Below are positions 3,180 through 40,747 of a DNA stretch of 40,747 nt, one piece after another. The notes under the pieces are model-generated. The model was not told the origin of the DNA, ran no database searches, and saw only the letters and a program-made list of their open reading frames with translations. The position numbers were made by a program, and so were the translations under genes. The stretch's first letter is position 1. Each line of letters begins with the position of its first letter. The DNA is taken from positions 1 to 40,747 of the IMG/VR virus record IMGVR_UViG_3300023278_001447; one strand, 5' to 3'. The stretch comes from a virus.

Positions 3180-3379
3180 GCTATAGCTCCAATCACTGTA
3201 ACCTTTCTACGGCGCAACTCCATACTTGCATAGTGAAACTCATCCCAGTATTGACCTGCCTTTGGATTCCAGCCATCACCTGCTTTAGCCGCTTTATACG
3301 CATCTTCGCGTATATAGAGCAGACTCTCGCTAGAGGTTTTCCCGAATTTTGCAATTGTTTCACTGTGCCAGTTATTCAT
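3176..3379 (-). CDS. Small conserved-looking phage hypothetical
   Basis: This 67-aa protein contains FGKTSSESLLYI, then GDGWNPKAGQYWDEFHY, then basic ELRRRK. I recognise this layout (FGKTSS, PKAG-Y-DE-HY, RR) from small phage proteins of unknown function. It is the first gene of the operon 3379-2021, preceded by an AT-rich leader (3400-3450) with a CATAATT -10-like box but no convincing -35. Confidence 0.65.
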   Translation of the reverse strand: MNNWHSETIAKFGKTSSESLLYIREDAYKAAKAGDGWNPKAGQYWDEFHYASMELRRRKVTVIGAIA

Positions 3380-3410
3380 AGTCTTGCCTCATGCTTGTTT
3401 AGGATATATC

Positions 3411-3439
3411 AATTATGAATCATTATTTAAATAATTTAA
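3411..3439 (-). promoter_or_regulatory. Possible weak promoter for the 3379-2021 operon
   Basis: The minus strand carries CATAATT (around 3417-3411), the same -10 form as the promoters at 36.7 and 37.6 kb. It sits downstream of AT-rich sequence related to the TAAAATAATT repeats. The -35 position does not read TTGCTT, so this site would be weak or need an activator. Confidence 0.3.
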
Positions 3440-3454
3440 AGTTTTATTTTAATA

Positions 3455-4792
3455 TTATGGATAATCGAACCCGCCGGTGCTTCCCTTGCCTGATTGTATC
3501 TCTGGAGGCCTTTCCATACTTTGAAACTTATTGATGTCTAGGCGGCTTGCTAGATACACTGTTCCAGTGGGAAAGCTACGCGCTTTGGCAAAATTGATTT
3601 CTGCAACGCCTCTATGCTCACTGTTTTCGTTATATACCTCATCTCTGTATATAAATGCGACAATATCGGCGTCTTGCTCGATAGCACCCGAATCACGCAA
3701 ATCGGATAGATTGGGCCGCTTATTAGGCCTGTCATCACACTTACGGTTTAACTGTGATAATGCAATAACGGGCAAGTTTAACTCTTTTGCCAATGCTTTT
3801 AACGCTCTGCTGATCTTAGATATTTCCTGCTCTCTGCTATTAGCACTCGCCGTTATTAGTTGTAAATAATCGACAATAATTAGCTTTAGGCCATGTTTCT
3901 TGTGCATCTTTCTTGCACTAGCTGTAATCTGATTTATTGTAATTCCACCCCGATCGTCAATATAAAGCGGCATATCTTTCAGCCGTGATACTGCTGACGA
4001 TAACTTAGGCCAATCATCTTCCTCTAATGTGCCTCGTCTTATCCGGTCTGCATATATACCACTGACACTAGCCACCATGCGCTCCATAAGCTCATCACGT
4101 GTCATTTCTGCACTGAACACTTGTACGCCCTCACCCCTCATTATGACATTTTCAGCAAAGTTCATTGCTAATGTCGTTTTCCCCATCGCAGGCCTAGCCG
4201 CCAATATGATTAGATTGCCATCTCTGAATCCACCAACTTTATCGTCTATTGCCTTTAGGCCTACCGTGACTCCAATCGGCTTACCTTTATTGTTGAATCG
4301 CTCATCTATATTTTCAATAACTTGCTTTATAGCTGAATTGGCTTGAGCTGCTTCTTCTCCGCTATCTGACTCCATGTTTAATAACTTTGCCTGAGACTCC
4401 ATTATTTTTTCTTCTGTGCTCTTATCTGAATCATACGCCAGAATGTTAATGTCATAGGCGGCAGATACTAGCTGTCGTTCTTTTGACTTATTCATAACCA
4501 CAACTGAATAAGACACTACGCTTAACGCGCTCGGCGTATCACGGGCTAGGCTGGCAATGTAAGCAAATTGATCTGGCAGTCTATCAGCGATAGATATGAC
4601 GTTAATATCTGATTGCTTTTCAGTCATTGTCTCTATCTGCTCAAATATCACCCTATTCTCATTAAAGTAAAAATCAGTTGATGATATGTTTTCAAGCACT
4701 TCTGGGAGTTTTCTATTATCAATCAATAAGCCGCCGATTACAGCTTGCTCTGCTTCTTTGTTGGCTGGCATTGTCTTATATTCATCGTTCAT
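3455..4792 (-). CDS. dnaB: Replicative DNA helicase, DnaB family
   Basis: This 445-aa protein has the full DnaB layout. An N-terminal helical domain starts with EAEQAVIGGLL at 14-23. A linker follows, then the RecA-like ATPase with Walker A ARPAMGKTT at 199-207, a Walker B IIVDYLQLI and the SQLNRK and RDSGAIEQDAD motifs. It unwinds DNA ahead of a fork; with no phage polymerase visible, it would serve the host replisome. Its ATG shares one base with the stop of the DUF1376 gene upstream (TAATG), so the putative loader/initiator and helicase are coupled. Confidence 0.95.
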   Translation of the reverse strand: MNDEYKTMPANKEAEQAVIGGLLIDNRKLPEVLENISSTDFYFNENRVIFEQIETMTEKQSDINVISIADRLPDQFAYIASLARDTPSALSVVSYSVVVMNKSKERQLVSAAYDINILAYDSDKSTEEKIMESQAKLLNMESDSGEEAAQANSAIKQVIENIDERFNNKGKPIGVTVGLKAIDDKVGGFRDGNLIILAARPAMGKTTLAMNFAENVIMRGEGVQVFSAEMTRDELMERMVASVSGIYADRIRRGTLEEDDWPKLSSAVSRLKDMPLYIDDRGGITINQITASARKMHKKHGLKLIIVDYLQLITASANSREQEISKISRALKALAKELNLPVIALSQLNRKCDDRPNKRPNLSDLRDSGAIEQDADIVAFIYRDEVYNENSEHRGVAEINFAKARSFPTGTVYLASRLDINKFQSMERPPEIQSGKGSTGGFDYP

Positions 4793-5538
4793 TATTTTAA
4801 ATTCCTTAATCTGTCAATCGTATTATCAAAGTTCTTGCGCTTAATAAGCCATTTTAAATTGGCTGACCAGTTGGCAAAATCACCTGAACCAACGCCCTCG
4901 AAGTACCAATCTATTTGCTTTATTGCAGTGAAAAAACGCTCCCAGAACTCAAGGCTTTGATGATTCTTGTGCTGCTTCCATCTTGCCCTTAAATCCTTTT
5001 CTGATTGTGAGCCAGCCCATAGTGATTTAGTTATGCTGGGTAAATCTGGTAAAATCTCGTGATATAAATCAATAATTTCATCATGCGGGCAAGGCGGTAT
5101 CTTTGATGCCGCAGTATCTTTAATTAGTTCTTGGTTATTAGTTATTAGTTCATAGTTAGCTTTCAATTCGCTTTCTTCTGGGTTAGCTAAAACAACCGAC
5201 TGGGTTTCTAGGCCTTTGTTCTTGCGAGGTCTTCCACCTTTCTTGCCGTTCTCTCTAGCCTTGTCTACCCTTTCTTGATACAGCTTGATCTCTATATCGC
5301 ACCGATAGTTATGGTATCCATCAGATTCTAATGTAAAAAATTCGCTTAATATCTGTTCAACTTCGTCGGCATAATTACTCAGCCTTAACCTACGGATTAC
5401 CAGCTTGGTTTCTTTAGGTATCGGTTGCTCAGTATCATAATAGAAGTCTATGAGGCGTCTATAAACGCCTTCTTCTTCAAGCGTTAGATGGCTTGTATGT
5501 AGCCAAAAGTCAGATATATTGAATTGATAGTAGTGCAT
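4792..5538 (-). CDS. DUF1376 replication protein (O-like/helicase loader candidate)
   Basis: The chosen ATG at 5538-5536 has AAGGGG just upstream and begins MHYYQFNISDFW, the normal DUF1376 start; an upstream frame extension is unlikely to be translated. This gives 248 aa. The first 80 residues hold the DUF1376 signature (LTLEEEGVYRRLID, then YYDTEQPIP), followed by a basic GKKGGRPRKNK segment and a C-terminal helical domain. Proteins of this kind often combine a winged-helix DNA-binding front with a C-terminal domain that contacts the helicase. Its coupling to dnaB supports a role in replication initiation. Confidence 0.8.
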   Translation of the reverse strand: MHYYQFNISDFWLHTSHLTLEEEGVYRRLIDFYYDTEQPIPKETKLVIRRLRLSNYADEVEQILSEFFTLESDGYHNYRCDIEIKLYQERVDKARENGKKGGRPRKNKGLETQSVVLANPEESELKANYELITNNQELIKDTAASKIPPCPHDEIIDLYHEILPDLPSITKSLWAGSQSEKDLRARWKQHKNHQSLEFWERFFTAIKQIDWYFEGVGSGDFANWSANLKWLIKRKNFDNTIDRLRNLK

Positions 5539-5653
5539 ATAATCCCCTTTAAAGATGACCCCTGCTGACAATTACCGGCTAGGGATGATCTTGTAGATCG
5601 AAACGGCTCAAGGGCCATCATTAAAGGAGACTAAAATTGCCTCCTAGCAAATG

Positions 5654-5669
5654 CGCTTGTCAGAGCGCA
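5654..5669 (-). other. Hairpin in the leader of the DUF1376-dnaB operon
   Basis: The minus strand reads GCGCT-CTGACA-AGCGC, a perfect 5-bp stem with a 6-base loop. It lies in the 192-bp gap 5539-5730 between the terminator at 5692-5722 and the DUF1376 start. The same gap holds AGGAG/CTCCT complementary segments near 5622-5645. The gap contains no convincing gene. Confidence 0.35.
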
Positions 5670-5691
5670 AATCAATTAAAAACTAGATCAA

Positions 5692-5722
5692 TCGAAAAAG
5701 CAAGCCCCAACTAGGTCGGGGC
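5692..5722 (-). terminator. Rho-independent terminator after the 5731-5928 gene
   Basis: On the minus strand GCCCC and GGGGC (5722-5704) form a GC stem around an 11-base loop with AC/GT inner pairs, followed by TTGCTTTTT. It directly follows the stop of the 65-aa gene and separates it from the replication genes. Confidence 0.6.
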
Positions 5723-5730
5723 CATGATTC

Positions 5731-5928
5731 TTAAATATACTTTTCGAGAATGCTGAACTTCTGTCCATACTTAGGCTTTGCAGTGAACTCATGGCCTTCT
5801 ACAATTAGGCCATTTTGATTCATGCTCGCCACTCGGCCAATCCAAATCATGTCCATCGCGTGTTGACTGAATTGAATAGTATCGCCTAATCGAAATTGGC
5901 CTGCTTTTAATTCAATAAGTTTGCTCAT
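5731..5928 (-). CDS. Small hypothetical protein
   Basis: This 65-aa protein reads MSKLIELKAGQFRLGDTIQF and ends KFSILEKYI. Short strands with Gly turns suggest a small beta-barrel-like fold, but no family is recognised. AAGGA lies nine bases before the ATG. The leader upstream carries a 26-bp hairpin-containing repeat shared with 8427-8460. A terminator follows the gene. Confidence 0.65.
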   Translation of the reverse strand: MSKLIELKAGQFRLGDTIQFSQHAMDMIWIGRVASMNQNGLIVEGHEFTAKPKYGQKFSILEKYI

Positions 5929-5985
5929 TGTGTTATATCCTTTAGTTTAGTTTGCTTAGTGGATAACCCTATTATTAAGGCTATC

Positions 5986-6020
5986 TAGTAAACTGCCATC
6001 CTTGGCTGTTAGTGTTTAAG
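5986..6020 (-). repeat. Dispersed hairpin repeat, copy A (CsrA/RsmA-like site candidate)
   Basis: The minus strand reads CTTAAACACTAACAGCC followed by AAGGATGGC. The plus strand at 8427-8452 has the same 26 bases with one mismatch. GCC and GGC enclose the hexaloop AAGGAT, which fits the ANGGAN loop recognised by CsrA/RsmA proteins. Each copy lies directly after a stop codon and before the next small gene, and the two copies point outward from the divergent promoter region. Confidence 0.6.
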
Positions 6021-6027
6021 TTAAATA

Positions 6028-6249
6028 CTAAACAATTTCATTCATCCCTTTAATCATCTCCAAAATATAGGCTTGATGTGTTTTGCCGTATAAATGCGAG
6101 CCTTGCTTCTTGTATCCGTCGACGCTGTATGATGTTTGTGTCTTATACAATCCAGCCCGTTTTGGGTCAGGGATAGCGGCATATCTTATCGTTAAGGCTT
6201 TATCCGATGTTGGGTGTTTCCAGTCTTTATATAACTCGTATGATTTCAT
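6028..6249 (-). CDS. Small hypothetical early protein
   Basis: The protein is 73 aa when started at ATG 6249, with GAGTG six bases upstream; a GTG nine bases further up is part of that site. It begins MKSYELYKDW and contains AAIPDPKRAGLYKTQ and SVDGYKKQGSH. No domain is recognised. It is the first gene of the leftward early transcript from the promoter at 6317-6289. Confidence 0.65.
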   Translation of the reverse strand: MKSYELYKDWKHPTSDKALTIRYAAIPDPKRAGLYKTQTSYSVDGYKKQGSHLYGKTHQAYILEMIKGMNEIV

Positions 6250-6275
6250 AATGTTCACTCTTATTGATTTATTTA

Positions 6276-6287
6276 GTTTACGGAAAC
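6276..6287. promoter_or_regulatory. GTTTCCGTAAAC operator-like palindrome, copy 1
   Basis: The 12-base imperfect palindrome GTTT-CCGT-AAAC lies immediately after the -10 box of the leftward promoter. The same sequence follows the -10 of both rightward promoters (6442-6453 and 8095-8106). Its fixed position at the transcription start suggests an operator or a shared leader element; the binding protein is unknown. Confidence 0.5.
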
Positions 6288-6288
6288 T

Positions 6289-6340
6289 ATTATTGCTCAG
6301 AATAACACTAAAAGCAACCCTTTTTTTAAAATAATTTAAG
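6289..6340 (-). promoter_or_regulatory. Early leftward promoter with AT-rich upstream element
   Basis: On the minus strand TTGCTT (6317-6312), 17 bases, AATAAT (6294-6289). Upstream is AAATTATTTTAAA, related to the TAAAATAATT repeats of the other early promoters. It is divergent from the promoter at 6412-6440. Confidence 0.75.
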
Positions 6341-6380
6341 TTTTTTTGATTATGATTAAAACCCTATAATTCCAATGACT

Positions 6381-6440
6381 TAAAATAATTTAAAATAATT
6401 TAAAATAAACCTTGCTTTATCATTAGTTATGAACAATAAT
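6381..6440 (+). promoter_or_regulatory. Early rightward promoter P1 with three phased 10-bp repeats
   Basis: Two exact TAAAATAATT units (6381-6390, 6391-6400) and a partial third (6401-6410) end one base before TTGCTT (6412-6417); after 17 bases comes AATAAT (6435-6440). The repeats resemble a strong UP element with one-helical-turn phasing. The stretch 6250-6474 between divergent genes contains only these control elements. Confidence 0.8.
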
Positions 6441-6441
6441 G

Positions 6442-6453
6442 GTTTCCGTAAAC
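6442..6453. promoter_or_regulatory. GTTTCCGTAAAC operator-like palindrome, copy 2
   Basis: Same 12-base element as at 6276-6287 and 8095-8106, one base after the P1 -10 box and followed by TAAACGAA and the ribosome site of the first early gene. Confidence 0.5.
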
Positions 6454-6474
6454 TAAACGAATGGGAGAATATCA

Positions 6475-6690
6475 ATGAGTAGATTAGACCAAAAAGTAGC
6501 CGAACAAAATCGAATTGCATTTCAGGAAAGCCAGAAACAAACAGCTCAGAAAATTGCTGTAGCTAAATGGTTAAAGGACAACCCTGAGATTGGTGAATTG
6601 AACGGCGGAAGATACTACAAGATCTCAGGCGGCAAGGTCATATATCTGAAGGCACTTACTAACGACATTCTAAGCATTGAAGATTTCTAA
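6475..6690 (+). CDS. Small hypothetical early protein
   Basis: This 71-aa protein begins MSRLDQKVAEQNRIA; GGGAG lies before the ATG. The first half is helical and charged; the second half (GELNGGRYYKISGG, then IYLKAL) is probably beta. It is the first gene of the rightward early operon from P1 and is followed by a GC hairpin that could reduce readthrough. The function is unknown. Confidence 0.65.
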   Translation: MSRLDQKVAEQNRIAFQESQKQTAQKIAVAKWLKDNPEIGELNGGRYYKISGGKVIYLKALTNDILSIEDF

Positions 6691-6698
6691 CATTAAAT

Positions 6699-6712
6699 GC
6701 CCCTTCGGGGGC
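6699..6712 (+). terminator. GC hairpin with TTCG loop (attenuator or weak terminator)
   Basis: GCCCC-TTCG-GGGGC forms a perfect 5-bp stem with a stable tetraloop nine bases after the stop at 6690. The downstream sequence TATTACTTTC is only moderately T-rich, so partial termination or RNA stabilisation is more likely than full termination. Confidence 0.5.
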
Positions 6713-6736
6713 TATTACTTTCTTTAGGTGAACGAC

Positions 6737-6937
6737 ATGAACAATAGAACTTACTTAGGCAACGGATTCACAATCGAACAATATGATGACGAGTTATGGT
6801 TATTAAAGAGTGGCCTATGCTGCAAACTCGCAACCGCAATCCGGTATAGCGAAACTGAGAGCAACGCGCCTGATTTCGTATATGTACCTGAAGTTATCTT
6901 GAAAGTGGCTTCCAAGTGGGCGCAGGAAATAAATTAA
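6737..6937 (+). CDS. Small hypothetical early protein
   Basis: The ATG at 6737 has AGGTGA at proper spacing; a GTG at 6728 falls inside that site. The product is 66 aa, begins MNNRTYLGNGFTIEQ and ends with the helix VASKWAQEIN. No domain is recognised. The next gene is preceded by a small AACCG-GAAA-CGGTT hairpin at 6950-6965. Confidence 0.6.
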   Translation: MNNRTYLGNGFTIEQYDDELWLLKSGLCCKLATAIRYSETESNAPDFVYVPEVILKVASKWAQEIN

Positions 6938-6992
6938 ATCTTTACTTAAAACCGGAAACGGTTAAACTAAAACTTAAACTGGAGCAAACTAA

Positions 6993-7127
6993 ATGCAAAT
7001 CTTGAGAATCGAAAACCACTTGGCAGCATACAAAGTAATCTGGACTATGGCGCAATCACCTAGGCACAAACTGGTATCTCATAGCCGTAAGCATGGCATA
7101 ACGACTATCAAGGTTAGACCTGCATGA
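6993..7127 (+). CDS. 44-aa basic hypothetical protein
   Basis: This short frame starts at ATG 6993 with GGAG eight bases upstream and reads MQILRIENHLAAYKVIWTMA, ending TTIKVRPA. It is basic (many Lys, Arg and His) and its stop overlaps the next ATG by ATGA, which supports its being real. No function is recognised. Confidence 0.6.
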   Translation: MQILRIENHLAAYKVIWTMAQSPRHKLVSHSRKHGITTIKVRPA

Positions 7128-7336
7128 GTTATTCAATAGAAATGGGCGCATACGAGGAATTCTGCTTGCGTATGGGCGTGATTAACGTCGATACCATACG
7201 TTTGGCTATCGAGATAGATAACGGTCTTGTGCGGCCTAATATGCAGTTTGATGAAAGCAGGATTAAAAGCATTTTTTTATTTGATGACGAGATTAATGAG
7301 CAAGAAGAAAGTGAAGTTAAACTAACTGCCGAATAA
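7124..7336 (+). CDS. Small acidic hypothetical protein
   Basis: This 70-aa acidic protein (MSYSIEMGAYEEFCLRMG at the start, DDEINEQEESE near the end) is coupled by ATGA to the basic 44-aa gene upstream. No domain is recognised. The opposite charge of the two coupled products could mean they bind each other, but this is only inference. Confidence 0.6.
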   Translation: MSYSIEMGAYEEFCLRMGVINVDTIRLAIEIDNGLVRPNMQFDESRIKSIFLFDDEINEQEESEVKLTAE

Positions 7337-7361
7337 CGGCAAAACAAAGCGAGGCAATAAA

Positions 7362-7577
7362 ATGGATAGTATATTTTTCTTAGTGGGTGCAGGTTTGGCT
7401 GGATGGCTATGTCACTATATGGCTAGTAATCGCAACCGAAATGCAGTTGGCTGGGCAATAACAGGATTCTGTTTCGGCCTAATACCAGCAATTATTTTGC
7501 TGTGTTTGGGTAAATTAGAGCCCGATCTATCACTTGAGCAAGTAGAAGATTTACTCAATAGGGAGACTATGAAATGA
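7362..7577 (+). CDS. Small two-helix membrane protein
   Basis: This 71-aa protein has two predicted membrane helices, about residues 3-20 (FFLVGAGLAGWLCHYM) and 27-49 (AVGWAITGFCFGLIPAIILL), separated by a basic NRNRN turn. The tail is acidic (LSLEQVEDLLNRE). GAGG lies seven bases before the ATG. The stop overlaps the next membrane gene by ATGA, so the two are made together and may form one complex. The function is unknown; its early position argues against a lysis role. Confidence 0.7.
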   Translation: MDSIFFLVGAGLAGWLCHYMASNRNRNAVGWAITGFCFGLIPAIILLCLGKLEPDLSLEQVEDLLNRETMK

Positions 7578-7840
7578 GAACGCTAAGTATAGTTGCACTT
7601 TGCTGGCACGCACTTGCGCTGGTATGCACCATAGGTTTTGCTGACTCTGATATAGACGCTGCAATAGGCTGGGGAATACTTTCGGCATTTTTTGGCGTGG
7701 TTGCGTCAATAGTATATATCCACAATATTAAAAGTAAGCCGGATTTGCTGGCAGAGTTATATAAGCTAAAAATTGCCCTAGATTCCGGAGCAATAAGCAA
7801 AGAGGCCTATGAACTAAAAAAGCTAGAGTTATCTCAATGA
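7574..7840 (+). CDS. Membrane protein with C-terminal SHOCT-like domain
   Basis: This 88-aa protein has two membrane helices (about residues 4-22 and 28-49) and a cytoplasmic C terminus LLAELYKLKIALDSGAISKE that matches the SHOCT pattern: helix, D-x-G-x-I-[ST]-x-E-x-[FY] turn, and a second helix rich in Lys and Leu. SHOCT domains are short helical hairpins often attached to membrane or nucleic-acid proteins; their role is not settled. It overlaps its neighbours on both sides by ATGA. A superinfection or membrane-modulating role is possible but unsupported. Confidence 0.7.
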   Translation: MRTLSIVALCWHALALVCTIGFADSDIDAAIGWGILSAFFGVVASIVYIHNIKSKPDLLAELYKLKIALDSGAISKEAYELKKLELSQ

Positions 7841-7971
7841 AGTCAACAAATCGAGTGATACAACACCGCAAAAAGGCAGCAAAGCTCGGACGTAGGCGCA
7901 AAGAGTATCTTGTGACTAATGATGAGCATGAGAAATTAAGGCTATATTTAGACAAATTGCGAGACAAATAA
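7837..7971 (+). CDS. 44-aa basic protein, possible ribbon-helix-helix relative
   Basis: This short frame begins at ATGA overlapping the previous stop and reads MKSTNRVIQHRKKAAKLGRR, then EYLVTNDEHEKLRLYLDKLRDK. A basic helix, then a short strand-like segment (EYLVT) and a DEHEKLRLYL helix, resembles the strand-helix unit of small phage and antitoxin ribbon-helix-helix proteins. It ends the P1 operon just before a terminator. DNA or RNA binding is plausible. Confidence 0.6.
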   Translation: MKSTNRVIQHRKKAAKLGRRRKEYLVTNDEHEKLRLYLDKLRDK

Positions 7972-7999
7972 CGATACATTTCGTCCGACATATAACAAT

Positions 8000-8024
8000 A
8001 AGGGGTGCTACAGCCCCTTTTTTT
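8000..8024 (+). terminator. Rho-independent terminator of the first early rightward operon
   Basis: AAGGGG and CCCCTT pair around an 8-base loop (TGCTACAG), followed by a seven-T run at 8018-8024. It follows the stop at 7971 and precedes the second rightward promoter. Confidence 0.75.
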
Positions 8025-8043
8025 ATGTTTTTTGCATATTTAT

Positions 8044-8093
8044 TAAAATAATTTAAAATAATGGTTGCTTTATCCCTTTTTATGGACAATAAT
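8044..8093 (+). promoter_or_regulatory. Early rightward promoter P2 with phased 10-bp repeats
   Basis: TAAAATAATT (8044-8053) and TAAAATAATG (8054-8063) end one base before TTGCTT (8065-8070); 17 bases later comes AATAAT (8088-8093). The arrangement is the same as in P1. Confidence 0.8.
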
Positions 8094-8094
8094 G

Positions 8095-8106
8095 GTTTCC
8101 GTAAAC
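8095..8106. promoter_or_regulatory. GTTTCCGTAAAC operator-like palindrome, copy 3
   Basis: Third copy of the 12-base element, one base after the P2 -10 box and again followed by TAAACGAA. P1 and P2 share the stretch CAATAATGG through AAACGAA without a change. Confidence 0.5.
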
Positions 8107-8131
8107 TAAACGAATCAACGGAGATAACGAC

Positions 8132-8431
8132 ATGACTGCATTTAATAAAGAAGATTTTCACTGGGATGGAATGTATTTGATGTACAGAGGCCCGTATAGC
8201 GGCTCAAAAAATATGGATGAAGTTCACCCGAACTGCCACCCTTCTTGGGTAGGCGTTATGAAGCCAGCATTTATTGCCAGATTCAAATATGGCTCTAAAC
8301 CTTGGAAGTCATGGGCCAACTTTCTTGTCAAAAATATTAGTGTTGAAGAATATCTGAAACTTGTAAATGAAACTTCTCCACTGGAAGCAATGCAAAAGTT
8401 GGGTTTCACACCTAGAAAGAAAAGAGCTTAA
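8132..8431 (+). CDS. Phage hypothetical protein
   Basis: This 99-aa protein starts after GGAG at good spacing and reads MTAFNKEDFHWDGMYLMYRG, with FIARFKYGSKPWKSW in the middle and a basic PRKKRA end. DFHWDG-YLMY followed by FIARFKY is a layout I associate with small phage proteins of unknown function. It is the first gene of the P2 transcript. The hairpin repeat at 8427-8460 starts at its stop codon. Confidence 0.65.
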   Translation: MTAFNKEDFHWDGMYLMYRGPYSGSKNMDEVHPNCHPSWVGVMKPAFIARFKYGSKPWKSWANFLVKNISVEEYLKLVNETSPLEAMQKLGFTPRKKRA

Positions 8432-8460
8432 ACACTAACTGCCAAGGATGGCTTTAACTA
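8427..8460 (+). repeat. Dispersed hairpin repeat, copy B (CsrA/RsmA-like site candidate)
   Basis: CTTAAACACTAACTGCC followed by AAGGATGGC matches the minus strand at 6020-5995 with one mismatch, and the flanks (TTTA-ACTA) remain similar. The GCC-AAGGAT-GGC hairpin sits about 20 bases upstream of the 8473 start, so a protein bound here could influence translation of that gene. Confidence 0.6.
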
Positions 8461-8472
8461 CTGGGGAAGTTT

Positions 8473-8655
8473 ATGGAAATTAAAAATAAAGATTTTGGGA
8501 AAACGCAAGCGAGCGGCACTAATAACCAAGATTATGAGCTTTATTTGCAGCTGGCAAATGATGGTCAAGGTAATGATATTACTACCGGAAAACCGCTTAA
8601 AGACTATGAAGAATGGGTCGGTATTCGTGGCGATATTATGATGCGGTATGACTAG
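8473..8655 (+). CDS. Small hypothetical protein
   Basis: This 60-aa protein has GGGGAAG five bases before its ATG. It reads MEIKNKDFGKTQASGTNN and contains DITTGKPLKDYEEWVG. It is acidic and has no recognised domain. The leader carries the hairpin repeat copy B. Confidence 0.6.
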   Translation: MEIKNKDFGKTQASGTNNQDYELYLQLANDGQGNDITTGKPLKDYEEWVGIRGDIMMRYD

Positions 8656-8657
8656 AT

Positions 8658-8813
8658 ATGCGCCCTAAAAACCCCAACCGCACCTTAGCCACAAAAGCTG
8701 GCGATAAGATTTATATAGGCAGCCCATGTAAAAAGTGTGCCGAAACTATCCGCTATACTAAAACGGGCAACTGTATTAGCTGCTCATCTAGGCGAGTAAA
8801 GATAAAGAGTTGA
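8658..8813 (+). CDS. 51-aa four-Cys zinc-ribbon protein
   Basis: The frame starts at ATG 8658, two bases after the previous stop, and reads MRPKNPNRTLATKAGDKIYI, then CKKC at residues 24-27 and CISC at 39-42, ending in a basic RRVKIKS tail. Two CxxC knuckles separated by 11 residues are a standard zinc ribbon, common in tiny phage proteins that bind nucleic acid or host factors. It converges on the late block with only five bases between stop codons. Confidence 0.7.
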   Translation: MRPKNPNRTLATKAGDKIYIGSPCKKCAETIRYTKTGNCISCSSRRVKIKS

Positions 8814-8818
8814 GCGTA

Positions 8819-9280
8819 TTATTTCTTAGCGATCTTTTGCATAGCAGTATTAGCAATCTCACTGATTTTAGGCGCAGCAAAATAAAAGCCTAATATAAGC
8901 ATAATGGCTCCTGTCATTTGATCGTTGCGCTTATCTATTATCTGGGATGCTTGAGAGAACTTATTATAAACTACTTGCCCAGCATCAACAGCCGTTGGCA
9001 TATCAACGAATACGCTTGCCAAATCCAGTAAGGTAGCTATTAGGAACAAACTCAGCCAAACAAAGCCAATAGACAGGGCTAAAACGCGCCTTGCAAGGTT
9101 TTGGCCTTGTGAATTCTTAATCCACTCATTGATAAGGCCTCGCGTCTCTCTTGCTGCCTGTGCGCGGTCTGCAGCTTCTTCCTGATCGGTATAAAAGGCA
9201 TCATCAAGCAATTCTTTACCATGCCCAATGACTTTATCAATGGCCGCATCACTGCCAAGTATTTTGCCTAAAAAGCTCAT
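8819..9280 (-). CDS. Putative holin (three-TM holin family-like)
   Basis: This 153-aa protein has an amphipathic N terminus, then GLINEWIKNSQGQNLARRVL leading into a long hydrophobic segment (about 66-92) and a second one (about 122-137), with a basic C terminus. The charged-Arg entry into the first helix and the overall size resemble the GTA-type three-TM holin family. It is the last gene of the late transcript, close to the endolysin gene, which supports a lysis role. A structural membrane protein is the alternative. Confidence 0.55.
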   Translation of the reverse strand: MSFLGKILGSDAAIDKVIGHGKELLDDAFYTDQEEAADRAQAARETRGLINEWIKNSQGQNLARRVLALSIGFVWLSLFLIATLLDLASVFVDMPTAVDAGQVVYNKFSQASQIIDKRNDQMTGAIMLILGFYFAAPKISEIANTAMQKIAKK

Positions 9281-9283
9281 TTT

Positions 9284-9658
9284 TTAACCTAGCGGGCTTT
9301 TCCCCACGTTACTTAATTCTTTATTTAGCCTATCTACTCTTTTCTGGAGTAAAGCAACGTCACTTTGCAGCAATTGGACATCGAGCTTTATCTGACCAAT
9401 GCTAGGCACACGAATGCCACTTACACGATCACTTAACCGTTGATTTGCCCCGCGCAATTGTTCTATCTCTTTACCGATAGTCTTTACGTCATTATCTTCA
9501 ATTCGTGTTTCTAGCTTGGTTAGCCTAGACTCTAAATGTGTGGCATTTGTGTTAGACTCAAGTGATGCCACTTTCTCGGTTAAAGTGCCATACCCTACGG
9601 CTGCACCTGATACAGTGCCAATTAGTGCAAGCCATGTCACCATCTGTTCAACTTTCAT
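9284..9658 (-). CDS. N-terminally anchored coiled-coil protein (spanin-like candidate)
   Basis: This 124-aa protein has one membrane helix near the N terminus (TWLALIGTVSGAAVGYG, about 8-24), followed by a long heptad-rich coiled coil and a short Gly-Pro tail. This is the topology of inner-membrane spanins and of XhlA-type lysis accessory proteins. It has no lipobox. It lies between the putative holin and two exported proteins and its start overlaps the upstream gene by 11 nt. Assignment as a spanin rests on topology and position only. Confidence 0.45.
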   Translation of the reverse strand: MKVEQMVTWLALIGTVSGAAVGYGTLTEKVASLESNTNATHLESRLTKLETRIEDNDVKTIGKEIEQLRGANQRLSDRVSGIRVPSIGQIKLDVQLLQSDVALLQKRVDRLNKELSNVGKSPLG

Positions 9659-10430
9659 TACTTATCTCCATCCGTGCTTCTTTGGTTTTGTAAAATTCCG
9701 GCTCACTCGATAGCTCCCAGAACTCTGATTCTACTGACAAGCTATAGCTATCCCACTCGACATTAAGATGTGCGCCAAGATCATCAGCAGTCATAACTGC
9801 TTGGTCATAAAATGCTTGCGTTGATTGTGTTGCTTGAGTGATAAATGTGGTTGATTCAACTATTTCGGCTCGATACTGCTCAAGCATATTGGCAGTTCTG
9901 CTAGAAGCAACCATATCGTCGATAGTCGCATTAAATGTCTGCACAGCATTATCACTAATCTCAGTTAATGAATTTTCATTAGCGTAGGCATTTAGTTGTA
10001 TTTTTCTTTCTTCACCAGCAGTTTCAATCTCAGCTGCTATAGCTGTAACTTCTGCGATGTTTTTTGCTTGGTCTATTAAGGATTCTTTCTGCTCTACAAA
10101 TTGATTTTGCAGTGTATTGATTTTTGTATCAATTAAGCTGTTTGTTAAATACTCTTGAGTGGATTCCTGCAATACAATGCCGTATTTCTCATTAAATGCC
10201 GCAACCTGCTCTGCATCGAGATAATATTCTTTGCCTGTATCTGGGCTTAGGATAACAGCATTTGTGCCGTCCATTGTTATGGATAGCGTTGATATAAAGC
10301 CATCAATACTAACGCCTACGGCTTGATTTATGGAAGTTGTTAGCTCTGCGAGACTTTGGCTTGCTGCCTTTGATGGCAGGGCGATCAGGAACAATATCAG
10401 GATTGTCCTCGTAATACTTATACGCTTCAT
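9648..10430 (-). CDS. Exported coiled-coil protein of unknown function
   Basis: The start is probably ATG 10430 (MKRISITRTILILFL), giving 260 aa; a TTG at 10436 has better GAGG spacing and would add two residues. A clear signal peptide (basic MKR, hydrophobic core, cleavage near PSKA-A) precedes a mostly helical region rich in Ala, Thr, Glu and Gln with coiled-coil character. There is no Cys for a lipoprotein. The first 120 or so bases lie inside the upstream gene in another frame, so the signal peptide is encoded by overlapping DNA. A periplasmic late function is likely. Confidence 0.6.
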   Translation of the reverse strand: MKRISITRTILILFLIALPSKAASQSLAELTTSINQAVGVSIDGFISTLSITMDGTNAVILSPDTGKEYYLDAEQVAAFNEKYGIVLQESTQEYLTNSLIDTKINTLQNQFVEQKESLIDQAKNIAEVTAIAAEIETAGEERKIQLNAYANENSLTEISDNAVQTFNATIDDMVASSRTANMLEQYRAEIVESTTFITQATQSTQAFYDQAVMTADDLGAHLNVEWDSYSLSVESEFWELSSEPEFYKTKEARMEISNES

Positions 10431-34415: not shown

Positions 34416-35651
34416 TTACCGCCCCATCGCCATATCAAGCAAATCACCTAGATTATTGCCTTGCTTGATGATTGGTGCTAGTGCATACCTGATTGCATCC
34501 CAACAATGATTGTGTTTGTCAATTAAAACAGTCAGAACGTCATCAGTCAATCTATCTCGTTTATACTTCCACAATCTAGCTTCCTCTGCTGTCTTTGGGC
34601 AATCTGTATGTATAATTATCTGTTCGAAGCCGCGCAAGGTCGATATACCATCCTCAACACTGCCAGCCCACTTCTCTACACCTACTGTCTTGGGGTAGCC
34701 ATGATGCTTCATATAGCTTATTACTTCCGGTCTGGCACAGTCTGCCCGCACCGTATGATTCTTGGCGTTTGGGATATTATCCCAGAACTCTGGCGTATCA
34801 TTTATCTCCACGCCTACCCTATATAACTCATGCCTGATATATAACTTATCAGTTGCAGGGTCTATATAGCATTCGATTAAAGTATCAGGGTCAGATGAAA
34901 AACCCCAATCCGCCCCGAGATATGGCCCATCCCAATGCGGTTCAGGTTCAAAGTCCTGTGTTATAAATTTGCCTGCCAAAACCTGATCGTCTGATTTTGT
35001 ATTGTGCTGACCAAGCCAAACATGGGAATAGCTATCAGGGTCACGCCTTAAATGGCGGTCAGCTTCATCTTTAAGTAATTGCGGGCAAAACGGGTTTTGC
35101 TGGTAATTGACGTGAATGCACCGATAATCAGGGTCATTGCCTGCATCATGGAACATTTTGTCTACTGGGTCGGTATCTTGATCTGGATTCCATGAGAACC
35201 ATATCTCAGATTCTTCCATACGAATAGTTGGCAATAACAGCTTCATGCTGCGATCTGATATGCTCTGCGCCTCCTCAACCCATGCTATCTTAAAGCCCTC
35301 TAGTGACTTAATAGAATCTGCCGTATGGTTTTGCATACCTTGAAAGATAATTACCCCATCACCGTTTATGCGCCTTATCTCAATAGATGTGATCTCAAAT
35401 AAGTGTGATACACCTAATGTCCTTATTTTGTCTTCGATAAGCTTTTTGGCAGAAAATTTAAGTGAACGCTGCACTTCACGGATACAGACAGCAGATAGAT
35501 TTGGATTGGCCGCTATTGCAGCTACAAGCTGCTCAGCAAAGAAATGTGATTTGCCTGAACCCCTGCCACCCTTTGCGCCTTTATAGCGGACAGGCTCAAG
35601 TAATGGCTTGCCCCATCGGGGCGTTTTTAATAATAGCTTGCCACCTTCCAC
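34416..35651 (-). CDS. terL: Terminase large subunit (PBSX/Terminase_3 type)
   Basis: The start is GTG at 35651, sharing one base with the small-subunit stop (TAGTG). This 411-aa protein has an N-terminal ATPase with Walker A GGRGSGKS (28-35) and Walker B IAWVEEAQ (about 118-125), the coupling SWNPDQDTDPVDKMF segment, and an RNase H-like nuclease with LGADWGFSSDPD, RADCARPE and DAIRYAL. It drives DNA packaging and cuts concatemers; PBSX-type enzymes commonly go with headful (pac) packaging, in line with the circular assembly. Confidence 0.95.
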   Translation of the reverse strand: MEGGKLLLKTPRWGKPLLEPVRYKGAKGGRGSGKSHFFAEQLVAAIAANPNLSAVCIREVQRSLKFSAKKLIEDKIRTLGVSHLFEITSIEIRRINGDGVIIFQGMQNHTADSIKSLEGFKIAWVEEAQSISDRSMKLLLPTIRMEESEIWFSWNPDQDTDPVDKMFHDAGNDPDYRCIHVNYQQNPFCPQLLKDEADRHLRRDPDSYSHVWLGQHNTKSDDQVLAGKFITQDFEPEPHWDGPYLGADWGFSSDPDTLIECYIDPATDKLYIRHELYRVGVEINDTPEFWDNIPNAKNHTVRADCARPEVISYMKHHGYPKTVGVEKWAGSVEDGISTLRGFEQIIIHTDCPKTAEEARLWKYKRDRLTDDVLTVLIDKHNHCWDAIRYALAPIIKQGNNLGDLLDMAMGR

Positions 35652-36055
35652 TAATCATCATCACCTAAAGGGTCAATAATAGTATGTTGCACTTCTGTGA
35701 TTTGCAGCGCACCACCCTCGGGGCCAGCAATATGACGTTTTTGCACATCCTCCCAGTTCTCAGGGTCGCGGTTTTTGAGGAAAAATATCATAGCTGTATT
35801 GTCGCCAGCTTTTGCTTTCTGGAATAGGGCGTTAGTGACTGTTGCAATACCTTTGGCTTTGCCATCTAAGTAAGCATCTGCAAGCCGCCGATCGCGCTTC
35901 TGATACTCGTTATAAGTGTCGTAGTGCATCCCTAGAGCGCGCGCCACTTGCTCCTTCGTCAGCCCTTGCGCCGCCAATGACTCAACCTTATAGAAGAAAC
36001 TGTCATCAGATATATTCCCATCTTGGTCGATGTCTAACAAATATGGCCTTGCCAT
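35651..36055 (-). CDS. terS: Terminase small subunit
   Basis: This 134-aa protein has an N-terminal helix-turn-helix (VESLAAQGLTKEQVARALGM then HYDTYNEYQKRD), a helical oligomerisation part (DAYLDGKAKGIATVTNALFQ) and the FFLKNRDPENWEDVQKR segment typical of small terminases. It recognises the packaging start and recruits the large subunit, encoded next. AAGGA lies before its ATG. Confidence 0.9.
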   Translation of the reverse strand: MARPYLLDIDQDGNISDDSFFYKVESLAAQGLTKEQVARALGMHYDTYNEYQKRDRRLADAYLDGKAKGIATVTNALFQKAKAGDNTAMIFFLKNRDPENWEDVQKRHIAGPEGGALQITEVQHTIIDPLGDDD

Positions 36056-36633: not shown

Positions 36634-36663
36634 TTTGATCTCCATTATTTAGTTTACAGTGTA

Positions 36664-36712
36664 ATTATGAACGATTATTTAAGTAAAGCAAGCATTATTT
36701 TAAATTATTTTG
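36664..36712 (-). promoter_or_regulatory. Leftward promoter P4 with phased 10-bp repeats
   Basis: On the minus strand, AAAATAATT and TAAAATAATG (36712-36693) end one base before TTGCTT (36691-36686); CATAATT follows after 16 bases (36669-36663). The order and spacing are as in P1 and P2. Downstream TGTAAACTAAATAATGGAG keeps the GTAAACTAAA part of the shared leader. Confidence 0.7.
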
Positions 36713-36724
36713 GTTTTTTGAGTT

Positions 36725-36744
36725 AAGCCGCAATTAAGCGGCTT
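36725..36744. repeat. Inverted repeat overlapping the ArdC-like stop codon
   Basis: AAGCCGC and GCGGCTT (36725-36731, 36738-36744) pair around six bases and include the stop codon at 36734-36736. No T run follows on the minus strand, so it is at most a weak terminator or a message-end stabiliser. Confidence 0.5.
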
Positions 36745-37564
36745 TTGTAAGTTCTTCCTCTGTTGTGATGCTAAGTAAGAACTTGGTAGCTTTTTCGGCT
36801 TGAGCTGCTGCTTGTAATATATATTTTGGCTCACTCTTCAGTTCTTTAATCCATGTTCCAATGTAGTTAGTGTGGTTTTCTGCTTCATTAGGGCAATCAA
36901 GCTCGATACTGGCGAAATATGCGCCGATTTCAGCAATCAGCTCTTCAAAGGCATAGCCCTTGCTTGATTTGTCTTGCAAGCGGTCTAGGCGCGTTTTATG
37001 GCCTGTCCAGTGAACTAACTCATGCAGCGCTGTACCGTAGTAGCCGTTTTCTGTGTGGAACTGGTTGACTTCAGGTAGCTGGATGTGATCGCTTGATGGA
37101 TTGTAATAAGCCCTGTCACCACCGTGGCGAATATCTGCACCAGTGTTTGCTAGGAAAACATCAAGCTGATTGGCGTTTAGTTCTTTTTCTTCTGCTTTGG
37201 TTGGAATTGTCAGGCCGTCGCATTGTGCGGCGTTGAAAATCTTGATTGTTTTGAAAGATGAGATATATGTATATTCTTCACCTGTTTTTTTGTTTTCGCC
37301 CTTGCGAACCATTGGCGCGAGGATTTCTGTGCCTTTTTCGCCTTTACGCACTTGGCCGCCTAGCTTTTTAAGCTGCTGATAGCCACCCCAATAATTACAA
37401 CCAAACTCAACTGAAGCAATATCCAACCATAGTGAATTCAGGCCCTCGTACTGCTTGTTGGTAGCTAGGTTAGTGGCACGATCACCGCGCTCTGCCCAAG
37501 GCTTTTGCCAAGGGGCTGTTCCGGATTCGATTGACGCTATGATTTGATCTACGATATTTTGCAT
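36734..37564 (-). CDS. ardC: ArdC-type antirestriction protein (DUF1738 plus zincin domain)
   Basis: This 276-aa protein has the ArdC_N part (IIASIESGTAPWQKPWAERG, YEGLNSLWLDIA, then GGQVRKGEKGTEIL), a single-strand DNA-binding domain. A zincin-like metallopeptidase domain follows with HELVHWTGH (181-189) and a later YAFEELIAEIGAYF whose Glu is the third metal ligand. ArdC proteins protect incoming DNA from restriction, and phage and plasmid copies often enter with or soon after the DNA. It has its own promoter (37623-37595). Its closeness to a putative DNA-modification cassette suggests a counter-defence island. Confidence 0.85.
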   Translation of the reverse strand: MQNIVDQIIASIESGTAPWQKPWAERGDRATNLATNKQYEGLNSLWLDIASVEFGCNYWGGYQQLKKLGGQVRKGEKGTEILAPMVRKGENKKTGEEYTYISSFKTIKIFNAAQCDGLTIPTKAEEKELNANQLDVFLANTGADIRHGGDRAYYNPSSDHIQLPEVNQFHTENGYYGTALHELVHWTGHKTRLDRLQDKSSKGYAFEELIAEIGAYFASIELDCPNEAENHTNYIGTWIKELKSEPKYILQAAAQAEKATKFLLSITTEEELTKAA

Positions 37565-37594
37565 TGTCTTACCCTCTCGTTTAGTTGATAGGGC

Positions 37595-37644
37595 AATTAT
37601 GGAGCAAAATCCACATAAAGCAACATTTATTTTAAATTATTTTA
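37595..37644 (-). promoter_or_regulatory. Leftward promoter P5 with phased 10-bp repeats
   Basis: On the minus strand TAAAATAATT and TAAAATAAAT (37644-37625) end one base before TTGCTT (37623-37618), then after 16-17 bases CATAATT (37601-37595). CAACTAAACGAGAGGG gives the ribosome site of the ArdC-like gene. Confidence 0.7.
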
Positions 37645-37648
37645 GTTT

Positions 37649-38425
37649 TTATGCTTTTTCTTTCTCTAGGTCGATTTTTGTAGCCCCTGCCAGCGGATAG
37701 AATATTAGACTATTTCTATAGCCTCCTTTAGTTTTGGGGACTATTGGGGTGACGCCATGCACATTTTTCCACGCAGGATAGACGATCATTGACCTATCGT
37801 GACAGGCAAAGGTTATCCCATAGTCTGGTACGCTTAGGCAACCGCCATCGGATAGTTTGCGCTTAGTTAGTATTACATTGATCGAGTCTTTTATATTACC
37901 CGTATCTCGATGGAAATTCGCCGCTATATTGTAATTAGCTATGCTGCTTGTGAAATGTTCGCCCACCTTGTATTTTTTTGGTATTTCCGCAAGCAAAGCC
38001 TTCTGCTTATCGTAGATGTGTGGAGCAATGCGCTTGACTATTTCCATTGATTCATTTGATGCAAGCAACATTGCTTTGACATAATTTCTAGCTGATTCTA
38101 TTTGGTGAACGGAGCTAACAGAATGATATGCTCGTTTAAAATTTGGCTTAGCCGGTATGAAGCCTAAAATGGTACTGCGCTGTTCAACACCATTAGAACG
38201 CCGCATATCAGATTTAGGCACATTGTCTCCAAGGAACTCATTGTTTGCCAAATCCAGTAGCTTTTTTAGCTTGACACTGTGCTTTGATATGTCGCGCAAA
38301 TAAAAGCCTATTACCTCGCCGTCTAAGATGAGCATAGTATCTTCTGTTACATTTGGCTCTATATGGCCACATGAAGCACCAATACTAATATCGTGCTCTA
38401 ATTCTTTAAGCTCTAGGTCAATCAT
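37649..38425 (-). CDS. TET/JBP-like 2-oxoglutarate/Fe(II) dioxygenase (putative DNA base oxygenase)
   Basis: This 258-aa protein's C-terminal half has the double-stranded beta-helix signature of the TET/JBP superfamily: IANYNIAANFHRDTGN with iron ligands His172 and Asp174 and the downstream Asn177; GGCLSVPDYG; then NVHGV with third ligand His223; and GGYRNSLIFYP with Arg237 for 2-oxoglutarate. The N-terminal half (about 1-150) is a helical extension without a known family. TET/JBP enzymes hydroxylate 5-methylcytosine or thymine in DNA. It is coupled to an FkbM-like methyltransferase gene (8-nt overlap). A DNA substrate is likely from the family but not proven; a free-nucleotide or protein hydroxylase is the alternative. 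Confidence 0.7.
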   Translation of the reverse strand: MIDLELKELEHDISIGASCGHIEPNVTEDTMLILDGEVIGFYLRDISKHSVKLKKLLDLANNEFLGDNVPKSDMRRSNGVEQRSTILGFIPAKPNFKRAYHSVSSVHQIESARNYVKAMLLASNESMEIVKRIAPHIYDKQKALLAEIPKKYKVGEHFTSSIANYNIAANFHRDTGNIKDSINVILTKRKLSDGGCLSVPDYGITFACHDRSMIVYPAWKNVHGVTPIVPKTKGGYRNSLIFYPLAGATKIDLEKEKA

Positions 38426-39143
38426 TCATACACCATATCATTTCACAAGCTGGGAACCACTCTTTAGGCCAAACATCATTCGGAGTGTGATAAGTATTTG
38501 AGTAATATATTTTGTCGTAAACAGCCTCAAGCCTGTCAATTACTGCTCGATACCTGCTCATGCTGTCATCAACATCAAAAGACCATTCAAAAACCAGCTT
38601 TCTGGGGTATACGTCCATATTCTCTAATATCGGTATCTCTGCGCCCTCTATATCCATCTTGACGCACAGTTCTGGGGAGTCAATTACCTTCCTAAAGTTT
38701 ATGCAATCAACCTTAAACTTTTGATTTCCCCAGTCTTTATAAAGCGAATTTCTCCATACCTGATTGTTGTTTCCAACATACATGGTCATTTGCTCTGTAT
38801 CGTCTGCCACAACCGCCAGTTGATTTACTCCTTCACTGCTTAAGTTATTAAGCTCTAGGTTTTTTTTAATCATCTTGACGTTGAACGGGTCTGGCTCGTA
38901 TGTATCTACTTTCGCGCCTTTCTGTAGCGCAAGACAGGTAAAAGCTCCGACATTGCCGCCTAGATCAACCCAATGGTCGCCCGCCTCAATCTCAAATTTG
39001 GGCTTATCCTTTTGACGCTTCTTCCAATGTCTTACTCGCTCATAAGAGTTATCTACGACAACCTCATCAAATGCCTTGAAGTCTGATGTACCCTCCCTGC
39101 AGGCGAATTTAAGCTCTTTATGGCTATGCAGCTTAATCTTCAT
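38418..39143 (-). CDS. FkbM-like SAM-dependent methyltransferase
   Basis: This 241-aa protein has a Rossmann methyltransferase core: HWVDLGGNVGAFT (motif I, 58-69), VDTYEPDP with acidic Glu83, and VKMDIEGAEIPIL (161-173), the characteristic FkbM block; FEWSFDVDD follows. FkbM enzymes are usually O-methyltransferases of sugars or hydroxyls. It is overlapped by the ParB-like gene (11 nt) upstream and the TET/JBP-like gene downstream, so the three are translated together. O-methylation of a hydroxymethyl base is a reasonable but unproved idea. Confidence 0.8.
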   Translation of the reverse strand: MKIKLHSHKELKFACREGTSDFKAFDEVVVDNSYERVRHWKKRQKDKPKFEIEAGDHWVDLGGNVGAFTCLALQKGAKVDTYEPDPFNVKMIKKNLELNNLSSEGVNQLAVVADDTEQMTMYVGNNNQVWRNSLYKDWGNQKFKVDCINFRKVIDSPELCVKMDIEGAEIPILENMDVYPRKLVFEWSFDVDDSMSRYRAVIDRLEAVYDKIYYSNTYHTPNDVWPKEWFPACEMIWCMND

Positions 39144-39753
39144 GCGAATCCTTTGCCTTTTGCAACAGGGCCATTACCAGCTGTCCAATAGATGTTCTTT
39201 GTCTCCACCATTTGACAAGCTCTGCGGCCTCGTCATAATCTTGTATATCGAACTCAATCTGTATTGCTTTCTTTCCGGCTTCGCTGATCTCGTTAGCAGC
39301 ATCTTCTGCATCATCATCATCAAGCAAATCATAATCAAGCTCATCGGCATCAAATCTAAGCTCAAGCAAAAAAGTATCTTCAAAGCCTAGTAGGTTCAAG
39401 TCATATTCAAGCTCACTTAATGCCTCTACTTCTAATTTCAGCTTTTCTAAATCCCAATCAGCATTCAGCGGGAGCTGGTTGTCGGCTATAACATATGCCT
39501 TCTTCTGGGCTTCTGTTAGTCCGCTTAGAACTATGGTAGGTATTTCTTCTGCGCCCAGCTTTTCAGCGGCCATAACCCGACCATGACCGGCTATAATCAT
39601 GCCTTCTTCATCAATTAGGACTGGATTAGTAAAGCCAAACTCCATTATAGAGCTTACTATTTGCTGGATTTGGTCTTCGCTATGCGTTCTTGAGTTATTG
39701 GAATATGGGATTAAGTCGGCAACTTTAGCTGTTGACTGTTTGTGATGTTTCAT
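39133..39753 (-). CDS. ParB/Srx-fold protein without a methylase domain
   Basis: Residues 8-100 of this 206-aa protein form a ParB-N/sulfiredoxin-fold domain: VADLIPYSNNSRTHSEDQIQ, MIIAGHGRVMAAEKLG (GHGR 56-59) and YVIADNQLPLNADWD (88-101). In many proteins this domain precedes a DNA methylase; here the sequence continues DLNLLGFEDTFLLEL and then an acidic linker (DDDDAED) and a short C-terminal domain (IQIEFDIQDYDEAAELVKWW). No methylase motifs are present. It is first in the operon with the FkbM and TET/JBP-like genes. ParB-like domains can bind or hydrolyse nucleotides or cut DNA; which applies is unknown. Confidence 0.8.
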   Translation of the reverse strand: MKHHKQSTAKVADLIPYSNNSRTHSEDQIQQIVSSIMEFGFTNPVLIDEEGMIIAGHGRVMAAEKLGAEEIPTIVLSGLTEAQKKAYVIADNQLPLNADWDLEKLKLEVEALSELEYDLNLLGFEDTFLLELRFDADELDYDLLDDDDAEDAANEISEAGKKAIQIEFDIQDYDEAAELVKWWRQRTSIGQLVMALLQKAKDSHED

Positions 39754-39779
39754 AATGTGACCTCGCTTTTTTGTATCGT

Positions 39780-39785
39780 ATTATA
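39780..39785 (-). promoter_or_regulatory. -10 box of the modification cassette
   Basis: TATAAT on the minus strand lies 27 bases before the ParB-like ATG, with GAGGTCACATT as ribosome site. No good -35 is present, and the TAAAATAATT repeats of the early promoters are absent, so this cassette is probably controlled differently. Confidence 0.4.
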
Positions 39786-40562: not shown

Positions 40563-40747
40563 TTAAAAAGGTATATCCTCATTGAAATCGTCTTCTAATT
40601 GCTGCTTTGCTGGTACAGGCTGGCTTCGCTGTTGTTCCTCACGCCAAAACACCTGCACATTTCCTAAAATCGGCCCTTTAACACCACTGTCCTTTTCTTC
40701 CTTAGTGACGTCTTGCGTAATCATGCCGGTATTGTCGTACTGGTCTT
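40563..40747 (-). CDS. C-terminal half of the SSB-tip protein (cut by window edge)
   Basis: This frame enters at 40747 and ends at TAA 40565-40563. It contains DVTKEEKDSGVKGPILGNVQ, a Gln/Pro-rich linker (QQRSQPVPAKQQ) and EDDFNEDIPF. With 1-154 it forms one 100-aa protein. A flexible linker plus acidic tip is exactly the C-terminal architecture of bacterial SSB. Confidence 0.8.
   Translation of the reverse strand, partial: DQYDNTGMITQDVTKEEKDSGVKGPILGNVQVFWREEQQRSQPVPAKQQLEDDFNEDIPF
40712..40747. repeat. Terminal direct repeat, right copy
   Basis: Matches bases 1-36 with one difference (G at 40729 for T at 18). See the left copy. Confidence 0.9.

Follow-up and report, generated by a model that had tools for sequence, protein, structure and literature searches.

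A ParB–FkbM–TET/JBP gene cassette as a candidate DNA hypermodification system in aquatic phages

Why would a phage genome hold a ParB-like protein, a methyltransferase and an oxygenase in one run of overlapping genes, and on what molecule would the two enzymes act? The question is raised by IMG/VR virus record IMGVR_UViG_3300023278_001447, all 40,747 nt of which constitute the window analyzed here. An earlier note on this DNA had proposed a DNA hypermodification cassette, a reading that is supported by the fold of the oxygenase and by the gene neighborhoods of its relatives.

The cassette and its flanking genes

All three genes lie on the minus strand. The gene for the ParB-like protein, which contains a ParB N-terminal domain, comes first (39133–39753; 206 amino acids), followed by genes for an FkbM-type SAM-dependent methyltransferase in what we designate the tailoring slot (38418–39143; 241 amino acids) and a TET/JBP 2OG-Fe(II) dioxygenase (37649–38425; 258 amino acids). 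The ORF coordinates bear out the overlaps described in the earlier note, which measure 11 nt between ParB and FkbM and 8 nt between FkbM and TET. Its family calls for all three genes agree with matches to Pfam, PHROG, and PDB sequences. The upper end of its span (37649–39785) lies beyond the first ATG of ParB, 32 nt to the upstream side, and an in-frame stop directly precedes this start. A purine-rich, ribosome-binding-like sequence is found upstream of the ParB start.

The adjoining downstream gene on the same strand, considered here only as context, encodes an ArdC-type antirestriction protein (36734–37564; PF08401, 2.4e-27; PF18818, 1.9e-43). Genes for the small (35651–36055; phrog_309, 4.6e-27) and large (34416–35651; PF04466, 9.5e-35) terminase subunits, also on the minus strand, are conserved neighbors of the cassette. 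The two copies of an imperfect 71-nt direct repeat (36648–36718 and 37580–37650; 76%) lie directly upstream of two successive genes, one starting at 36645 and the other, ArdC, at 37564; the repeat is perhaps a duplicated regulatory region. The ends of the record (1–37 and 40711–40747) are near-identical over ~36 nt with one mismatch. A single reading frame continues across the joined, near-overlapping ends, and the record therefore probably represents a complete myovirus-like genome, circular or circularly permuted; the absence of further modification genes among the part of the ORFs covered by profiles is therefore meaningful.

The oxygenase matches Tet_JBP (PF12851) in Pfam at 3.5e-11 (43.0 bits; cut-off 34.9). 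The HxD...H triad for Fe(II) and the distal arginine for 2-oxoglutarate are present as H172, D174, H223, and R237, numbered correctly in the earlier note; these residues, as well as N177 and R76, are each invariant in 138 of 138 relatives. A single-sequence search of PDB returned little or nothing informative, and a profile of 39 TET relatives gave matches that are weak by sequence alone, with TET2 the best (E 0.03) and CMD1 next (E 0.14). The alignment with TET2 pairs the HrD..N, H, and R motifs and places N177 on the asparagine of the HxD..N motif of TET2. When the AlphaFold2 model of the protein (pLDDT 83) was searched with Foldseek, ranks 1–22 were occupied by NgTET1, TET2, CcTet, and CMD1 (best E 1.3e-8; TMq 0.53–0.70), followed mostly by FTO. 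All of the highest-ranked structures are TETs that act on DNA, as the earlier note's family call had implied, and a 2OG family that does not act on nucleic acids was rejected on the fold search. On the basis of profiles and its modeled fold, the oxygenase groups with TET2, NgTET1, CcTet, and CMD1 and is predicted to oxidize a 5-methylpyrimidine in DNA.

The ParB-like protein falls just under the Pfam cut-off for ParB_N (PF02195; 1.5e-5; 25.4 bits against 26.3), and its assignment is settled by a PHROG ParB match (1.6e-55) and by matches to ParB/Spo0J sequences in PDB. A further match is to phrog_498 (9.5e-49), a phage ParB-DNA methyltransferase family, over the ParB portion of that family. A cytosine-modifying enzyme of phage likewise has ParBc proteins in its vicinity according to the CmoX paper, which assigns them no role (PMC12783734).

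Contents of the slot between ParB and TET

The search for the three families together in other gene neighborhoods, proposed in the earlier note, was strongly positive. The gene order repeats in about 200 retrieved loci (numbered with the prefix L), which argues that the cassette is not a chance arrangement. Among 80 viral loci with TETs 48–58% identical, most of those long enough to tell contain ParB, a slot, and TET, followed by the terminase genes. An FkbM-based search also yielded 80 loci, all of which contain both FkbM and TET, with ParB present wherever the contig reaches the ParB position. A scan of genome contigs gave one match, a contig from a Flavobacteriaceae MAG that carries TET and matches a terminase; neither ParB nor FkbM was matched in its retrieved stretch.

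A tally by locus, in which some contigs appear twice (no deduplication by contig) and many contigs are fragments, comprises 99 cases of ParB-FkbM-TET, 77 of ParB-TAGT-TET, three with two TAGTs, and a few others; nothing was recognized between ParB and TET in 15, including L106, with the order ParB-TET-FkbM, and actinophage L005. TAGT is the TET-associated glycosyltransferase (PF20691). The three best Pfam matches of its representatives are 4.4e-13, 1.8e-7, and 1.3e-5, the last below the cut-off, and two more representative groups that lack a Pfam match were assigned by similarity. ParB was not called in 19 contigs in which TET starts less than 1.5 kb from the edge of the retrieved stretch; these include two actinophage loci with a divergent ParB missed by the profile.

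FkbM and TAGT were found together in 0 of 218 loci (FkbM only, 103; TAGT only, 88; neither, 27). More rarely, the slot is empty or holds different enzymes, such as an amino acid:DNA transferase (ADDT) with a P-loop protein. On a tree of 97 TETs, strongly supported branches force at least 11 changes of the slot for FkbM and at least 8 for TAGT. The slot is modular, since its label changes many times on this tree; ParB remains constant in nearly every variant of the cassette.

Several individual loci show further arrangements. In L063 (1578–2878) and L069 (1878–3178), a TAGT-like gene and then a sulfotransferase gene lie between ParB and TET, a combination that could possibly produce a sulfated glycosyl base. 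The TAGT-like gene of L049 is followed by one for a 598-amino acid protein whose sequence looks, on visual inspection, like a nucleotidyltransferase-HAD-phosphotransferase fusion (3376–5923). L012 contains a remnant of FkbM between ParB and TET (2847–2951), which is a decayed slot gene.

FkbM enzymes are common in surface-glycan and natural-product loci, which raises the alternative that the oxygenase and methyltransferase modify glycans, protein, or a small molecule and that ParB is present by coincidence. We consider this extremely improbable: the fold matches of TET are DNA enzymes, ParB adjoins TET in nearly every locus, distant actinophages included, and the partners that swap with FkbM in the slot, TAGT and ADDT, belong to DNA-modifying families.

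The methyltransferase step and the identity of the base

The methyltransferase matches PF05050 (Methyltransf_21/FkbM) at 1.9e-6 (28.5 bits; cut-off 22.7). Its invariant features are the SAM motif D60-x-G62-G-N-x-G66, E83, and KMDIEGAE at 162–169. A single-sequence search of PDB again returned little or nothing informative, and a fold search with the structure model (pLDDT 90) gave only generic matches, to class I methyltransferases. The FkbM family is broad, and any acceptor assigned to the cassette enzyme is putative.

The gene order, methyltransferase and then TET, would suit an enzyme that methylates C5 of a pyrimidine in DNA and thereby supplies TET with its 5-methylpyrimidine. Indeed, the fold matches include the uracil-C5 RNA methyltransferases RumA and TrmA, albeit at low TM (0.43–0.48). 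However, C5-pyrimidine methyltransferases require a nucleophilic cysteine. None of the invariant columns in an alignment of 40 FkbM sequences is a cysteine, and the two most conserved cysteine columns, 89 and 147, both vary among 68 sequences. Moreover, close relatives have glycosyltransferases in the slot or nothing at all. We rejected this role for FkbM because the enzyme has no invariant cysteine, and regard it as highly improbable. A second candidate, methylation of the sugar added by TAGT, was rejected because no locus contains both FkbM and TAGT.

In the window and in nearly all FkbM loci, FkbM is the sole tailoring gene between ParB and TET, and it alternates with glycosyltransferases in the slot. 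For these reasons, O-methylation of the hydroxymethyl group made by TET is the most economical step for FkbM. The earlier note had arrived at the methyl-ether product by inference; this product is still inferred, now with the exchange of FkbM and glycosyltransferases in the slot behind it.

Locus L114 is the main difficulty for the O-methylation model. A single run of genes in this locus (5822–9980) encodes ParB, ADDT, an FAD oxidoreductase, FkbM, a P-loop protein, and TET. There, FkbM and the ADDT route would both need the same hydroxyl, and the FkbM of this locus may therefore act on a different atom. One could generalize from L114, where the hydroxyl would already be consumed, to a model in which FkbM modifies another atom of the TET-derived group (such as an amine) or a different molecule altogether. 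Nearly all FkbM loci nevertheless offer the hydroxymethyl group as the obvious acceptor, with no second tailoring enzyme in place, and we find such a generalization rather improbable.

The ADDT cassettes also bear on the choice of base. In L058 (1117–4192) and L199 (1809–4903), the slot contains GATase-like, GNAT-like, ADDT, and P-loop genes, which are predicted to form a TET-based system for amino-acid modification of thymine in environmental phages. A search with the ADDT of L058 found only itself; L199 surfaced through the TET search. We take ADDT to be a family of thymidine hypermodification, and for its thymine specificity we rely on the literature of the family. The TET of L058 is 81% identical to those of the FkbM cassettes L083 and L084, and that of L199 is 92% identical to the TET of FkbM locus L195. 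The P-loop protein of the ADDT cassettes has no strong match to any kinase family. In the general pathway of thymidine hypermodification, a DNA kinase phosphorylates 5hmdU in DNA, after which the base is converted further (PMC6449724).

Neither the window nor any of five complete phage isolates encodes a C5-cytosine methyltransferase. Two sets of related records yielded the enzyme in 3 of 47 and 5 of 43 cases, with no demonstrated connection to the cassette in any of them. A thymidylate-synthase-type hydroxymethylase was found in none of 38 records, the window among them, and hydroxymethylation before replication by a thymidylate-synthase homolog was rejected on this ground. Thymine is favored because the ADDT cassettes share 81–92% identical TETs with FkbM cassettes, C5-cytosine methyltransferases are rare, and no such hydroxymethylase was found; oxidation of thymine in DNA would be the simplest account.

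The alternative base is cytosine. TET would oxidize 5-methylcytosine (5mC), supplied by the host or by a separate phage C5-methyltransferase, to 5-hydroxymethylcytosine (5hmC), and FkbM would convert it to 5-(methoxymethyl)cytosine. The best structural matches of the oxygenase act mostly on 5mC, and N177 is shared with TET2. On the other hand, Leu245, which occupies position R+8 and is invariant in 138 of 138 relatives, stands where TET2 and NgTET1 presumably have the histidine that contacts 5mC. TAGT of T-even phages acts on cytosine derivatives, being used on glucosylated hydroxymethylcytosine (PMC13216743, PMC13390438). The few related records with a C5-methyltransferase, including the L199 contig itself, keep cytosine in consideration. 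Against it stand the scarcity of this enzyme and the close identity between the TETs of ADDT and FkbM cassettes, and we judge cytosine to be the unlikely, if credible, choice.

Taken with thymine as the base, our preferred model, in which we have moderate confidence, is hypermodification after replication. TET/JBP would act on a pyrimidine of phage DNA, most likely thymine, and hydroxylate its 5-methyl group to yield 5-hydroxymethyluracil. FkbM would use SAM to O-methylate the hydroxyl and yield 5-(methoxymethyl)uracil, taking the place held by TAGT or the amino acid:DNA transferase pathway in related phages. The ParB-like protein, a putative targeting, loading or accessory factor, would presumably bind DNA and direct or load the enzymes. 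The likely benefit would be escape from host restriction, which fits with the ArdC antirestriction gene that adjoins the cassette.

Relation to known systems and significance

The cassette has the ParB-slot-TET-terminase layout and the TET subfamily of phage TET/JBP systems with TAGT (PF20691), from which it differs in that FkbM replaces the glycosyltransferase, the two being mutually exclusive. In the base J pathway of kinetoplastids, which combines JBP with a glucosyltransferase, thymine is oxidized in DNA and the hydroxyl is then capped with glucose. The sequence of steps proposed here is similar, except that the cap would be methyl and the enzymes are encoded in a phage operon with ParB. 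Thymidine hypermodification of the M6/ViI type also tailors a 5hmU intermediate after replication, through a 5hmdU DNA kinase and then a transferase (PMC6449724). In that route 5hmdU enters as a dNTP, whereas TET would act on DNA here and no thymidylate-synthase-type hydroxymethylase was found. Rhodococcus phage Tonitrus encodes ParB, a TET-like protein, and downstream tailoring enzymes at its genome end, and its thymidine hypermodification gene set is itself a prediction (PMC11955845). Unlike the window, Tonitrus has aGPT-PPlase2 and a 5hmU DNA kinase and no FkbM; the two TETs are 28% identical.

Closer relatives are found in phages of Prochlorococcus. MED4-184 and MED4-117 carry ParB-FkbM-TET in one run beside terminase, and in P-HS2 TET and FkbM lie at the same coordinates as in MED4-184. 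Compared with the window, their TETs are 44% and their FkbMs 40% identical. Among annotated isolates, close FkbM relatives occur only in these three phages, each of which also encodes a TET relative. Beyond them, FkbM matches drop to 35% identity or less, cover part of the protein, and come from Pelagibacter, Rhodococcus, Streptomyces, and other phages; no Pelagibacter or Streptomyces phage appears among the TET matches in annotated isolates. RefSeq labels TET relatives (L002, L003, and L006) as queuine tRNA-ribosyltransferase and the ParB of MED4-184 and MED4-117 as DNA methylase. Both labels look like misannotations.

Iyer et al. reportedly linked phage TET/JBP with ParB in 2013. Earlier work has recognized ParB-TET systems whose partners are glycosyltransferases or of the thymidine type (PMC11955845; Pfam TAGT). 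Our literature search found no report that links FkbM, TET, and phage DNA and none of a methoxymethyl base in phage DNA, and we therefore take the FkbM branch as new, although an earlier description of the FkbM-TET linkage is possible. To our knowledge, no methyl-ether DNA base has been reported.

We think it fairly probable that 5-(methoxymethyl)uracil, or its cytosine analog, occurs in the DNA of many aquatic phages as the product of TET and FkbM, and that it stems from a modular ParB-[slot]-TET cassette that exchanges a methyltransferase, glycosyltransferases, sulfotransferase combinations, and amino acid transferase pathways. The cassette predicts a specific new DNA base as well as a general design, with an exchangeable tailoring enzyme and an unchanging core of ParB and TET. 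It is carried by isolated Prochlorococcus phages, and the misleading labels of queuine tRNA-ribosyltransferase and DNA methylase are corrected by its recognition. Phage ParB-like proteins, the analysis suggests, have a role in base modification. A methyl cap would be nearly as small a change as a hydroxymethyl base can undergo, and it could shield phage DNA from restriction as well as from enzymes directed at hydroxymethyl bases in their glucosylated or free form.
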